Below are positions 45,674 through 50,540 of a stretch of 64,000 nt of DNA, piece after piece. The stretch is from positions 1-64,000 of the forward strand of contig NZ_JASCIS010000014.1 of NCBI RefSeq assembly GCF_029968015.1, read 5' to 3'. The stretch comes from Streptomyces luteolus. GTDB lineage: Bacteria > Actinomycetota > Actinomycetes > Streptomycetales > Streptomycetaceae. The position numbers and the translations under genes were made by a program. A model generated the notes under the pieces. It was not told the origin of the DNA and did not search any database. It was given only the letters and a program-made list of their open reading frames with translations. How positions within the stretch are numbered: the first letter of the stretch is position 1; every line of letters starts with the position of its first letter.

Positions 45674-46624
45674 CTACTTCGGCGCCCCGACCAGCTTCCC
45701 CTCGGGCGAGACCGCGTACCAAGTGCCGCCCACGCCCTGGCCGTTGACGTCGCCGGGCTTACTGTCGCCGGAGAAGGTGTAGAGCGGCCAGCAGTCGATG
45801 GTCTGCTGCTTCTTCCCGTCTGGCCGGTCGAACACCGTGAACCCCTTCTTCAGGACACCTTTCGCGTCGTTCTTGTCCACAGGCTCCACGACGGGCCAGT
45901 TGTCCAGACAGGCACCAGTGCATGCGGACTTCATGGGCCAGGCGGAGTCCTTCTGGAAGCGGTAGACGGTCATGCCGCGCCTGTCCACGACGATCTCGCC
46001 GAGTTCGGGGTCCTCGCGGGTGGACATACCGGGCAGGTCCGTCGCCTGCTCGCCCGCGGAACCGCCCCCGGCTGCCGCCTTCGCCTTCTCGCCGTCGGGC
46101 GCCGCCGCGTGCCAGGTGCCGCCGACGCCCTGCCCCTTGGCGTCGCCGGGCTTCTTGTCGGCGGCGTAGCGGTACATCGGCCAGCCGGCGACGGTCAGTT
46201 GCTCGGTGCCGTCCTCGCGGGCGACCGAGCCGATGAGGGCGGGGTCGACGCCGGGCGCGGCCTTGGCGCCGTCGGCGGCGACCACGGGCCAGGTCTCGGC
46301 GCACTCCCCCGCGCAGGTGGACTTCGGCGGCTTCGCGGTGTCCTGGTCGAAGCGGTAGAGCGTGAACCCGGCGCTGTCGGTGAGGACGTCGCCGAACTTC
46401 TTGCTCTTCCACACGGCGAGCTGCCCGGCCGCCTTGGCCTCCGCCTCGCCGCTGCCGCCCGCCGCCGAGCCGTATCCGTCGCCGTAACTCCCGTTCGCCG
46501 GGGCGGCGTTGCCCACGGACTGCCCGTTCGCGTCCTCGCCGGACCGCTCCTGTCCGCACGCCGCCGTCAGCGTCAACAGGGCCGCGGCCGCCACCGCGAT
46601 CGACGCGCTCCGCCAGGTGTTCAT
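45674..46624 (-). CDS. SCO0930-type lipoprotein with two COG4315 repeats
   Basis: A 316-residue lipoprotein. The ATG at 46624 has AGGAG nine bases upstream and gives a signal peptide ending TLTAAC (Cys23); an in-frame TTG three codons earlier is rejected. Two homologous halves each contain the pattern TLYRFDQDTAKPPKSTCAGECAETWPVV or TVYRFQKDSAWPMKSACTGACLDNWPVV, and each ends GQGVGGTWHA/YAVSPEG. The paired cysteines in each half suggest disulfides or cofactor contact. The family is abundant in Streptomyces; function unknown. Confidence 0.88.
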   Translation of the reverse strand: MNTWRSASIAVAAAALLTLTAACGQERSGEDANGQSVGNAAPANGSYGDGYGSAAGGSGEAEAKAAGQLAVWKSKKFGDVLTDSAGFTLYRFDQDTAKPPKSTCAGECAETWPVVAADGAKAAPGVDPALIGSVAREDGTEQLTVAGWPMYRYAADKKPGDAKGQGVGGTWHAAAPDGEKAKAAAGGGSAGEQATDLPGMSTREDPELGEIVVDRRGMTVYRFQKDSAWPMKSACTGACLDNWPVVEPVDKNDAKGVLKKGFTVFDRPDGKKQQTIDCWPLYTFSGDSKPGDVNGQGVGGTWYAVSPEGKLVGAPK

Positions 46625-46738
46625 GCCGGTCAACTCCTGTGCTCGTAGAGGCAGTTGCTACGCATGCGGCACATCGCACGCACCCCTGGATACGGAGCAG
46701 CCCACGGCCGGCACTCAATCACCGCCGAAATTCTTTTC

Positions 46739-47358: not shown

Positions 47359-47919
47359 ATGCGCGCGATATCCCTCGCATCGGCGGCCGTCGTCACGGCG
47401 GGCGCCCTGGCCCTCACCACCCCGGCCGCCCATGCCACGGTCGCGGGGGACAACGACAACGACATCACGTCGTTCGGCTTCAGCGTGACGCCGTCGACGG
47501 TCGCCGCGGGAGGCCAGGTCACCTTGAAGGTGGACGGCTGCGACGCGACGGCACACGCCACCTCCGGCGTCTTCGACAAGGTGAGGATCCCCCGGGGCCG
47601 GACGGCCACCGCCACTGTCGACTGGGACGCCAAGCCGGGCGCGATGTACACCGTCACCTTCGAGTGCAAGGGCGAGACGGGCACCACGGATCTGACTATC
47701 GCCACCGGCGGCGGTCATCACACGGGTGGCCAGGACACGGGTGGCCAGGACACCGGTGGCCAGCAGCACAACATCCACCGCGGCGTACGGGCCGGTATCG
47801 GCGGGACCTTCGGCGACCTCGACTTCCACGACCTCGCCCTGGGCGCCGCCCTGATCACGGGCGCGCTTGGCTCCGCGTACTACTGGGCCAGGCGCCGCCC
47901 GACCGAGGACGGCGCCTGA
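47359..47919 (+). CDS. Small secreted surface protein with C-terminal membrane tail (I)
   Basis: A 186-residue exported protein. The signal peptide is about 26 residues (MRAISLASAAVVTAGALALT, cleavage after AHA). A beta-rich domain contains FSVTPSTVAAGGQVTLKVDGC with two cysteines (Cys in KVDGCDAT and FECKGET). Then come a GGQDTG repeat linker (about 120-137) and a C-terminal hydrophobic helix LALGAALITGALGSAYYWA followed by RRRPTEDGA. This tail resembles a cell-wall sorting signal without LPXTG. AAGGA precedes the ATG. It is near a class F sortase and convergent with a similar protein gene. Confidence 0.8.
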   Translation: MRAISLASAAVVTAGALALTTPAAHATVAGDNDNDITSFGFSVTPSTVAAGGQVTLKVDGCDATAHATSGVFDKVRIPRGRTATATVDWDAKPGAMYTVTFECKGETGTTDLTIATGGGHHTGGQDTGGQDTGGQQHNIHRGVRAGIGGTFGDLDFHDLALGAALITGALGSAYYWARRRPTEDGA

Positions 47920-48005
47920 GCGCGGGGCACGGACGCCGGGCCGCCGCCATGAACCCCATGAACCCTCGCCTCGCGTACGGGATGCCCCACCTCCCGTACA
48001 CAGAA

Positions 48006-48051
48006 CGGCACTTCGCCCCGGGATCCGCACCGGTCCCGGGACGAAGTGCCG
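48006..48051. terminator. Bidirectional terminator between the two surface-protein genes
   Basis: An 18-bp stem with one mismatch (CGGCACTTCGCCCCGGGA with TCCCGGGACGAAGTGCCG) and a ten-base loop. It lies midway between the converging stops at 47919 and 48081. Confidence 0.85.
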
Positions 48052-48080
48052 CCGTGCGCGCCGGTGGGCGCGCCGATGGG

Positions 48081-48572
48081 TCAGGCGCGGCCGGTCCTGG
48101 TCTCGCCGCGGCGGCGCAGCCAGAACACACCGCCGCCGATGAGCGCGGCACCCACGAGGGAACCGCCGATGGCGACGTCGGTCGACGTGGCACCGGTGCT
48201 GCTGCTGCCGCCGACACCGCCTTGGGAGCCGCCGTGGATCACGGTGAGGGCGCCCTCCCGCGTCACGCTGCTGCCGCCGCAGGTGGCGGTCACGCTGTGC
48301 GAGCCGATGTGGGCGTTGCGCTTGATCCGGACGTTGGCGGTGGCGACACCACCGTTCCAGCGCAGCCGGGTGTTCGGGAAGGCCGACGAGGAGACATGGC
48401 CGCCCGACCGGCACTCATGGGCGTTGACCATCACCGACACGGAACCGCCGCGGAAGGTGGTGGTCGGCGAGACGGTGATGGCGCTTCCGTCCCAAGCGCT
48501 CGCGGACGGTGCTGCGAGCCCGATGATGGCGCCGGCGGCGGCCGTGACCGCCAGGGTACGAGAAGTACGCAT
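48081..48572 (-). CDS. Small secreted surface protein with C-terminal membrane tail (II)
   Basis: A 163-residue exported protein with the same plan as its convergent neighbour. The signal peptide ends PSASA (residue 26). A beta-rich domain (ITVSPTTTFRGGSVSVMVNA) has two cysteines (HECRSGG, TATCGGSS), and a Gly/Ser linker leads to the tail VAIGGSLVGAALIGGGVFWL followed by RRRGE. GGAGG stands five bases before the ATG at 48572, which fixes the start. It is divergent from the class F sortase, a possible partner. Confidence 0.82.
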   Translation of the reverse strand: MRTSRTLAVTAAAGAIIGLAAPSASAWDGSAITVSPTTTFRGGSVSVMVNAHECRSGGHVSSSAFPNTRLRWNGGVATANVRIKRNAHIGSHSVTATCGGSSVTREGALTVIHGGSQGGVGGSSSTGATSTDVAIGGSLVGAALIGGGVFWLRRRGETRTGRA

Positions 48573-48908
48573 GAGAACCTCCGCGGGAGAGCGCCCCGAG
48601 GAACCGTCCCCGGGCAGGATTGGCGAGATCGCCCTCCCAGACCGACCCTCAGGTGCCGTGCACCTGCCCGCATTTCGGGGCTGGTCCGTCCTGGTGAGGC
48701 GACACGCCGGAGCGAAGTCCCGCGGAGGCGAGTAAGGGCAGGTCACGGGCCGTCAGAAATTGTCTGAGGCAGGAAACTCGGATGGCGCACGGACCGTTCG
48801 GCCGCCACCCGTTCGCCTCCTCCCTGTCGCCGCTTTTCCGAACGACCCTTAGCGTTCTGCCATGCGCAATGGACGCGGCAGGACTGTCGCGTTGAGAGGG
48901 GATAGAGA
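48573..48908. other. Divergent promoter region between surface protein II and sortase
   Basis: No gene is convincing here. It must hold the promoters of the two divergent genes. A short dyad AGGTGCCGTGCACCT near 48650 and the CTTAGCGTT word at 48848 are the only features I see. Confidence 0.5.
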
Positions 48909-49571
48909 ATGCCTTCGTCCCAGTCCGCCACCGAGGAGGAGCCGCAGAAGAGGCGCGCCCCATGGGGAGTGATAGCGCTTGTTCTGCTCACCGGGCTCGC
49001 CTTGATAAGGAATGGTTCCGGCGAATTCACCGTGGGACCGCCGCAGCCCGCTTCGGCCGCCGCGACCGACAACCGCGTGCACGGCCAGACCCATACCGGC
49101 GGCCCCGCGCCGCTGTCGTTCTCGCTCGCCGAGCGGGTCAGGATCCCGGCGATCCAGGTGGACGCCCCGATCATGCCCGTGGGCCTGGACGCGCAGGGCT
49201 GGGTGGACGCGCCGCCTCCGCAGGACCCGAACCTGGCGGGCTGGTTCAACGGCTCCGTCTCGCCGGGCGAGAAGGGCACATCCGTGGTCGTCGGCCATGT
49301 CGACAACAACACGGGGCCCGCGGTCTTCTACGGCCTCGGTGCGCTGACCAAGGGAAACCACGTCGAGATCACCCGCAAGGACGGCCGCACGGTCGTTTTC
49401 GAGGTCTACGGGATCGAGGTGTACGACAAGGAGAACGTCCCGGGCTCCAAGGTGTACGGCGACACCGGCGAGGCCGAACTCCGGGTCATCACCTGCGGCG
49501 GCGGATTCACGAAGGAGAACGGCTACGACGGAAATGTCGTGGCGTTCGCCCGGATGGTGAAGACGACCTGA
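48909..49571 (+). CDS. Class F sortase
   Basis: A 220-residue membrane-anchored transpeptidase. An N-terminal helix spans about 19-34, then a linker, then the sortase barrel. The catalytic residues are His130 (VVVGHVDNN), Cys196 (VITCGGGF) and Arg215 (VAFARM). The short barrel with VRIPAIQVDAPIMPVGLD is typical of the class F group of actinobacteria, whose substrates are poorly known. GAGAGGGGA precedes the ATG. Two proteins with sorting-like tails are encoded just upstream. Confidence 0.9.
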   Translation: MPSSQSATEEEPQKRRAPWGVIALVLLTGLALIRNGSGEFTVGPPQPASAAATDNRVHGQTHTGGPAPLSFSLAERVRIPAIQVDAPIMPVGLDAQGWVDAPPPQDPNLAGWFNGSVSPGEKGTSVVVGHVDNNTGPAVFYGLGALTKGNHVEITRKDGRTVVFEVYGIEVYDKENVPGSKVYGDTGEAELRVITCGGGFTKENGYDGNVVAFARMVKTT

Positions 49572-49694: not shown

Positions 49695-50540
49695 CTACAT
49701 CAGCGCGCGGCTCGGCACCCCGATCCGATATCCCTCGTCGAGCAGCTTCGGCAGATAGGTCCGCAGGGCCTTCACGGTCTGGGAGCGATTGCCGCCCGCG
49801 TCGTGCGAGAGCACCACGACGCCGGGCCCCGCGCCCTCCAGGACGCGTCTGACGATGGTGCCGGTGCCCGGCTCCTGCCAGTCGAGGGTGTCGACCGTCC
49901 AGGCCAGGGGTTCCATGCCGAGCTCGGCACCGATCTCGAACGCCGAGCGGTTCCAGGCCCCGTACGGTGCGCGGAACCAGAGCGGTGGCCGACCCACGAC
50001 GTCCAGGACGGCGTCGCTGGTGCGCTCGATCTCGTCGCGGATCCCGGGGCGCCGCATCAGGGTCAGTTGGGGGTGCGTGAAGGTGTGGTTGCCGATGGTG
50101 TGACCCTCGTCGATCATCCGCCGCAGCAGGTCCGGGTTGGACTCGGCCATCTCGCCGCAGACGAAGAACATCGCGCGCACGTCGTGCTTGCGCAGGGTGG
50201 TGAGGACGTCCGGGGTGTAGCGGGGGTCGGGGCCGTCGTCGAAGGTGAGGACCATGCCCCGGCCACGGTCGTCCATCCGCAGAATGGGCTTGCTGCGTAC
50301 GGGAGTTCGCGCCACGGCGGCCCGCTGCGGACCGTAGCCCGTGATGGGCCGCAGCCGGTACGCGGAAGGCTTCTGGGGACGGGCCGCCTGGGCTCCCCCG
50401 GCGGGGCCCGGCGAGGTGGACGGTCGGGCGGTGGTGCCGGACCGTTCGGTGCCGGCACAGCCGGCGGTGGCCGCGAGGGCGAAGAGGGCGGCGCCGCGCA
50501 GGAGTACGCGGCGCCCCGGAAGCATTTCGTCCTTTTTCAT
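49695..50540 (-). CDS. Tat-exported polysaccharide deacetylase lipoprotein (CE4)
   Basis: A 281-residue NodB-type deacetylase. The signal has a twin-arginine RRVLLRG (10-16) and lipobox ATAGC with Cys28, so it is probably a Tat-exported lipoprotein. The catalytic fold starts near residue 95: TFDDGPD with Asp101 and metal Asp102, HTFTHP with metal His152 and His156, the RAPYG loop, and VVVLSHD near the end. It should deacetylate cell-wall or exopolysaccharide N-acetyl groups. It converges on the sortase gene. Confidence 0.92.
   Translation of the reverse strand: MKKDEMLPGRRVLLRGAALFALAATAGCAGTERSGTTARPSTSPGPAGGAQAARPQKPSAYRLRPITGYGPQRAAVARTPVRSKPILRMDDRGRGMVLTFDDGPDPRYTPDVLTTLRKHDVRAMFFVCGEMAESNPDLLRRMIDEGHTIGNHTFTHPQLTLMRRPGIRDEIERTSDAVLDVVGRPPLWFRAPYGAWNRSAFEIGAELGMEPLAWTVDTLDWQEPGTGTIVRRVLEGAGPGVVVLSHDAGGNRSQTVKALRTYLPKLLDEGYRIGVPSRALM

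Follow-up and report, generated by a model that had tools for sequence, protein, structure and literature searches.

A class F sortase of Streptomyces luteolus and two neighbouring surface proteins with a glycine motif before the C-terminal helix: a candidate sorting system

The locus described here raises the question of whether a class F sortase acts on the two small secreted proteins encoded beside it and, if so, by which signal it would recognize them. In the available portions of the cited reports, the role of class F sortases is given as unknown (PMC6998099, PMC13251363) or as not conclusive (PMC13257024), and Streptomyces coelicolor is predicted to possess five class F enzymes, with sorting signals given for classes A to E only (PMC5148588). 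The genes lie in a 64,000-nucleotide stretch of Streptomyces luteolus DNA, hereafter the window, drawn from a genome assembly of 8.46 Mb in 113 contigs. Our answer, to which we assign a probability of roughly 0.78, is that a dedicated class F sortase cuts two paralogous substrates inside a glycine motif and anchors both to the cell wall. Plain membrane anchoring of the two proteins is its main rival.

Three genes and two proteins of one plan

The three open reading frames that a first-pass annotation had placed at this locus are real and stand where it had put them:

47359..47919, + strand: P0001, secreted surface protein of 186 aa (open reading frame)
48081..48572, - strand: P0002, secreted surface protein of 163 aa (open reading frame; divergent from the sortase gene)
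48909..49571, + strand: P0003 (SrtF), class F sortase of 220 aa (NF033748, PF04203)

The strands (- and +) bear out its claim that P0002 diverges from the sortase. Its picture of a sortase flanked by two small proteins was right about the neighbours and loose about the flanking, as both genes lie on the upstream side only. The class F assignment also held, P0003 scoring 204.3 bits against the NCBIfam class F model NF033748 (cut-off 166) and matching PF04203 at E 1.3e-24. The enzyme has a single N-terminal hydrophobic segment (residues 17-35) and a catalytic domain at residues 77-217.

The 80 named loci nearest to the P0003 profile are all from Streptomyces, and the order P0001(+) P0002(-) SrtF(+) is kept in 52 of them, some of the remainder being interrupted by contig ends. 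Two further genes lie close to the trio in the window. A polysaccharide deacetylase (49695-50540, - strand; PF01522, E 1.6e-38) is convergent to the sortase, has a homologue in 79/80 orthologous loci, and may share with it the same wall as target. Upstream of P0001, at 45674-46633 (- strand), lies the gene for a secreted protein in which PF03640 (Lipoprotein_15) is repeated four times, homologues of which occur in 43 of the 51 full-length orthologous loci. A sigma-70 promoter scan, of a type that is uninformative in Streptomyces, returned no match.

P0001 consists of a signal peptide, a two-cysteine Ig-like beta domain (approximately residues 40-114), a His/Gly/Gln linker, and a sorting-type tail; P0002 runs from its signal peptide through a two-cysteine beta domain and a low-complexity linker to the C-terminal helix and RRR. 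The common plan noticed at first pass (signal peptide, two-cysteine beta domain, linker, helix, RRR) is thus upheld by sequence, alignments, and AlphaFold, with the signal peptides assigned by inspection. The cysteines are invariant in the family alignments (C61/C103 among 40 members for P0001; C54/C98 among 41 for P0002). AlphaFold models the beta domains with 78 (P0001) and 70 (P0002) residues at pLDDT >=90, and the C-terminal helix of each protein as a separate element of lower certainty. A search of the own genome with profile A2, which has P0001 among its members, returned P0001 at E 1.6e-70. Compared by hhalign, the two families match at 99.7% (E 2.3e-25), with signal peptide and tail contributing, and by this profile alignment P0001 and P0002 are paralogues.

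Foldseek returned no match for either beta-domain model at E <0.001, just generic Ig-like folds, and because its matches are generic Ig-like domains, we drew no surface function for the beta domains from them. Both models weakly resemble a Clostridium perfringens pilin domain (8gsy, E ~0.002), and both paralogous substrates are present in 53/80 orthologous loci. Two paralogous Ig-like substrates per sortase, together with this pilin likeness, would fit an enzyme that couples P0001 to P0002 or builds a polymer from them, after the fashion of pilus sortases. We consider such a linkage highly improbable: the sortase belongs to class F, not class C, some loci hold a single substrate, most tail-bearing loci outside Streptomyces show just one, and the structural resemblance is of the generic Ig-like kind.

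The glycine motif and its association with class F sortases

As had been stated at first pass, neither P0001 nor P0002 contains an LPXTG-type pentapeptide (LPXTG, LAXTG, NPXTN, or LPXTA), and the LAXTG before the helix that characterizes class E substrates is accordingly absent from both. What had been missed is a glycine motif preceding each helix, GVRAGIGG in P0001 and GSQGGVGG in P0002:

47782..47805, + strand: P0001 motif G142-VRAGIG-G149, proposed sorting motif, with the proposed scissile bond between A145 and G146
47824..47898, + strand: P0001 C-terminal helix (residues 156-178) and RRR (178-180), from sequence, family alignment, and AlphaFold
48207..48230, - strand: P0002 motif G115-SQGGVG-G122, with the proposed scissile bond between G118 and G119

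Signal peptide, motif, C-terminal helix, and basic tail follow one another in both proteins in the order of a sorting signal. Within the P0001 family, G146, G148, and G149 are invariant (40/40), and G142 and V143 are conserved in at least 90%; within the P0002 family, whose consensus is GVRGGLGG, G119 and G122 are invariant (41/41), and G115, G118, and G121 reach at least 90%. Among the 80 Streptomyces loci, 56 carry a P0001-family gene and 76 a P0002-family gene. The pattern [A/G]-G-x-G-G stands before the helix in 56/56 and 74/76 of the respective tails; of the two exceptions, one is a masked stretch and the other a degenerate copy. Its distance to the basic cluster is nearly constant, at 28 residues in 50/56 P0001-family tails and at 30 (58 tails) or 28 (14 tails) among 74 of the P0002 family. 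GV precedes the motif in 52 P0001-family and 55 P0002-family tails (GVHAG, GVRAG, GVRGG, and similar); the P0002 of the window has lost this valine (GSQGG), which counts against its being a sortase substrate.

Presence of the two families follows that of the sortase across the genus. An SrtF orthologue (E ~1e-76 or better) occurs in 91 of 121 genomes. Strong P0002-family matches (E < ~1e-26) fall in 88 genomes, all among these 91 and none among the other 30, and strong P0001-family matches (E < ~1e-42) in 76, of which 75 have SrtF and one (G219) lacks it; the thresholds for "strong" were picked after the scores had been seen, and co-occurrence was counted per genome, not by adjacency. Counting against the pairing, weaker matches turn up in genomes that lack an SrtF orthologue, nine such genomes with the P0002 profile (E ~1e-13 to 1e-16) and five with the P0001 profile (E 1e-31 to 1e-36); these proteins may be paralogues whose partners are other class F sortases. 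At the level of the locus, P0002 is found in 48 and P0001 in 37 of the 51 full-length orthologous loci. A contrast genome of the genus (G089) has no class F sortase and no match, which points in the same direction as the pairing.

Adjacency counts from profiles A2 to A5 are biased towards the sortase-substrate reading because these profiles were built from sortase-adjacent tails (A2, A3, and A5 throughout; A4 except for two own-genome tails). With that bias, at least 43 of 64 motif-spanning A4 matches lie <=2 kb from a class F sortase, as does at least one of 34 helix-only matches. Counting against the reading, 27 of the 55 same-genus class F sortases listed have no A4-detected tail <=2 kb away.

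To look beyond the genus, 148 genomes were sampled from the class. Class F is matched at E <=1e-10 in 84 of them, with 64 above the model cut-off, and class E at E <=1e-20 in 119. At least 95 non-genus class F sortases were listed; 85 of these, in 80 regions, were examined, 10 were left out, and 40 class E regions formed the comparison set. By home-made, crude filters for tails and signal peptides, a protein with both features is found in 58/80 class F regions (65 tails in all) versus an open reading frame with both in 10/40 class E regions (13 tails). The 22 class F loci in which these filters found no tail protein count against the reading. The pattern L[PA]xT[GA] matches 0/65 class F-linked tails, and a loose form of the motif occurs in 54 of the 80 class F loci. 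Among the class E tails are four LPFTG proteins in three loci, in which the loose motif matches as well, a point against the reading; the other nine look like the C-termini of multi-pass proteins.

A de novo motif search on 64 class F-linked tails, from which tail L227 (start 3540, the C-terminus of a multi-pass protein) was left out, recovered [TAV]-P-x-G-G-[VAP]-x-[TA]-G, followed by the helix and Arg/Lys. Its score was 381.8, against a mean of 105.1 (sd 4.1, maximum 114.4) for 15 shuffles, the shuffles being run with 5 seeds and 25 iterations and the real tails with 12 seeds and 60 iterations. The commonest arrangement (38/64) has the tail gene upstream of the sortase and on its strand. In some regions (L224, L229, L230, L236, and L237) two class F sortases are accompanied by two or three tail proteins whose motifs differ slightly (GGAQTGEAP and GGAATGGGG, for instance), as though every sortase used a code of its own.

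A sorting-domain model of this type, NCBIfam NF058571 (GVDTG_CTERM), already exists in the annotation community. At E <=1e-4 it yields 68 matches in the 148 genomes, against zero in the 14 controls; 64 of the 68 span the motif, and for at least 53 of these 64 a class F sortase is found within 3 kb, the model having been built by others, possibly with the same gene context in mind. The helix-only matches are near a class F sortase in 0/4 cases, among the sortases listed. All 44 genomes with motif-spanning matches have class F, versus 84/148 overall (Fisher p 2e-14, phylogeny ignored). With profile A5, a class F sortase is no more than 3 kb away from at least 80 of the 102 motif-spanning matches, and 56 of 58 genomes have class F; G011 and G109 have A5 motif matches but no class F match at E <=1e-10. 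Among the sortases listed, none is near 11/64 NF058571 and 22/102 A5 motif matches, and one such unpaired match, in genome G111, sits at the end of its contig, with a class F sortase at the start. The proteins of the window themselves stay below the NF058571 cut-off of 29 bits (P0001 14.6; P0002 21.6, E 1.9e-4 over residues 114-155), which counts against the reading, and a paralogous tail on contig C28 of the same genome scores 36.8 bits. At E <=0.01 the model matches 36/41 P0002-family and 11/40 P0001-family members.

Further pairs are found elsewhere in the S. luteolus genome. Class F sortases on C28, C49, C89, and C70 each adjoin a secreted protein with a like tail, namely HVKTGVGG (C28), GMHTGGGG (C49 and C89), and QVRGGLGG (C70), and another on C30 abuts an RAGGGG tail. 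Five of the six best GVDTG_CTERM matches in this genome lie beside class F sortases (C28, C89, C49, C20, and C70), whereas the remaining one is a tail with LAHTG. Tails with LAETG or LAHTG, as is typical for class E substrates, are present at other sites of this genome (L010, L015, and L025). For two further motif tails, on C26 and C32, no sortase was listed on the same contig, and a third, on C39, lies at a contig end; all three may be served in trans. The class F loci of C49 and C89 (L043 3795-4586, L040 4261-4632) encode near-identical tails, and the C49 tail protein contains four copies of an internal repeat, KPKGGMRTGGGLLASVGGDDW, that resembles its own sorting motif.

It is against this distribution that the main rival must be weighed, namely that P0001 and P0002 are merely tail-anchored, that the sortase acts on other proteins, and that the glycine motif is a flexible linker. 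A helix followed by RRR would suffice as an anchor, and glycine-rich linkers are common among high-GC secreted proteins. Tail-anchored exported proteins do exist in Streptomyces, according to the available part of PMC10924467. A linker, however, needs no three invariant glycines set 28 or 30 residues from a basic cluster, and tail anchoring leaves unexplained why many families converge on PxGG[VA]x[TA]G; the presence of a class F sortase in every one of the 44 genomes with motif-spanning NF058571 matches likewise speaks against it. We therefore regard simple tail anchoring as unlikely. Among the checks that the first-pass annotation had named for its choice between substrates of a non-LPXTG class F system and plain membrane anchoring were a conserved pre-helix motif across homologues and genomic co-occurrence with the sortase. 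The motif was found within and beyond Streptomyces, and the co-occurrence both by locus and by genome, and together they favour class F substrates.

The sortase and the proposed reaction

Three codons of the sortase gene bear on whether the enzyme could carry out the proposed cleavage:

49296..49298, + strand: His130 (81/81 orthologues; 84/86 of the broad class F set)
49494..49496, + strand: Cys196, nucleophile by homology (81/81; 84/86)
49533..49535, + strand: Asn209, at the catalytic-Arg position of other sortases (81/81; 80/86)

P0003 has the His and TC motif of class F (His130 and Thr195-Cys196), with H, T, and C each found in 84/86 sequences. It lacks the classical His-Cys-Arg triad with Arg on strand 8, where the alignment places Asn209; the canonical catalytic Arg, which we take to lie at Cys+13 as in S. 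aureus SrtA, corresponds to this Asn. The first-pass claim of an intact His130/Cys196/Arg215 accordingly stands for the first two residues, which are conserved, and fails for the third: position 215 is Arg in 75/81 close orthologues and in 16/86 class F sortases compared, and the Arg position holds Asn209. As judged by alignment, Arg215 is not catalytic. Replacement of Arg by Asn in actinobacterial class F sortases has already been published (PMC6998099, available part). P0003 conforms to it, with Asn209 shared by 80/86. PMC6998099 cites for it an earlier analysis by its own authors, probably Malik and Kim 2019.

Arg192, Thr195, Cys196, Gly197, and Gly198 are conserved in the 80 orthologues because the search pattern demanded them; His130 and Asn209 were not required by it. 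Arg192 (49482-49484), four residues before the catalytic Cys, is also conserved in 78/86 class F sortases and might be a stand-in for the absent strand-8 Arg. When the P1 residue (Thr vs Ala/Gly/Ser) was compared with sortase positions in the 63 of 64 pairs that could be typed, eight positions were listed, none of them in the active site; at three of the eight, gaps predominate in one group, some tails were wrongly parsed by the regular expression, and the comparison was set aside.

In the wall-anchoring reading, P0001 and P0002 would be exported and, with the C-terminal helix and RRR keeping them in the membrane, presented to the membrane-bound sortase. Cys196, acting with His130, would cut within G-V-x-[A/G/T]-G-x-G-G, between A/G/T (P1) and the next Gly (P1'); a thioacyl intermediate would form after the cut, and the product would be passed to the wall precursor, lipid II. 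We infer the cleavage itself, its exact bond, the transpeptidation to lipid II, and whatever the beta domains may do at the cell surface. The step after the cut could go otherwise if the sortase were a site-specific protease that frees both proteins by hydrolysis without joining them to the wall, and Asn in place of the catalytic Arg could conceivably shift the balance between hydrolysis and transpeptidation. Such a releasing protease seems to us quite improbable, given that Cys and His are conserved and that the Asn is common to 80/86 of the family; the portions of the literature consulted here offered no example of a sortase dedicated to release.

Extending the wall-anchoring reading beyond this locus, we think it rather probable that, in Actinomycetia, the Asn-type class F sortases form a distinct transpeptidase branch with a code of their own, P-x-G-G-[VA]-x-[TAG]-G-x-G, and that many genomes run several such pairs beside class E and LAXTG. 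In such a branch, Gly-Val/Ala would occupy the Leu-Pro position, and Streptomyces would mostly use Ala/Gly for the Thr before the cut. The motif and the named neighbours make the role of class F accessible to peptide-cleavage and wall-fractionation tests and, if the reading is true, the enzymes would offer a ligation specificity distinct from LPXTG, with possible use in protein engineering.

Comparison with known sorting systems

The Streptomyces class E system (SrtE1/SrtE2, LAXTG, chaplins), as described in the available part of PMC5148588, belongs to the same genus and shares the tripartite substrate plan; it differs in sortase class, in the Arg329 of SrtE1, and in the LAXTG motif. The SrtF of Cutibacterium (Propionibacterium) acnes, the first class F sortase studied, shares the class name, but the accessible portion of PMC13257024 reports that it recognizes LPXTG, a difference that counts against our reading. 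PDB 5UUS, shown as a class F structure (PMC8361268), is distant kin, matching the broad profile of the P0003 family at E 0.0052. GVDTG_CTERM has the C-terminal plan and the motif position in common with the Streptomyces families, whereas its name has Asp-Thr where Streptomyces members mostly have Arg/His/Gln and then Ala/Gly. Nowhere in the literature searched, which includes few subscription papers, did we find such tails linked to class F, the broader consensus, or the Ala/Gly variant of Streptomyces.

The remaining comparison is with Actinoplanes missouriensis, for which a gene-context guess on class F substrates is already in print (2026; PMC13251363, as far as its available text goes). 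Deletion of all four class F genes there left the phenotype unchanged, which we count against the sortase-substrate reading. According to the same portion of that paper, its substrate search used LPXTG-type patterns, and such patterns miss a glycine-motif signal. AMIS_11010 and AMIS_36440, encoded beside srtF1 and srtF4, were named there as possible substrates and set aside, having no pentapeptide. By their description in the text available, they resemble the proteins of the present locus in signal peptide, helix, basic stretch, and class F neighbour; that text defines no motif for them, whereas the tails compared here share one drawn from many loci.
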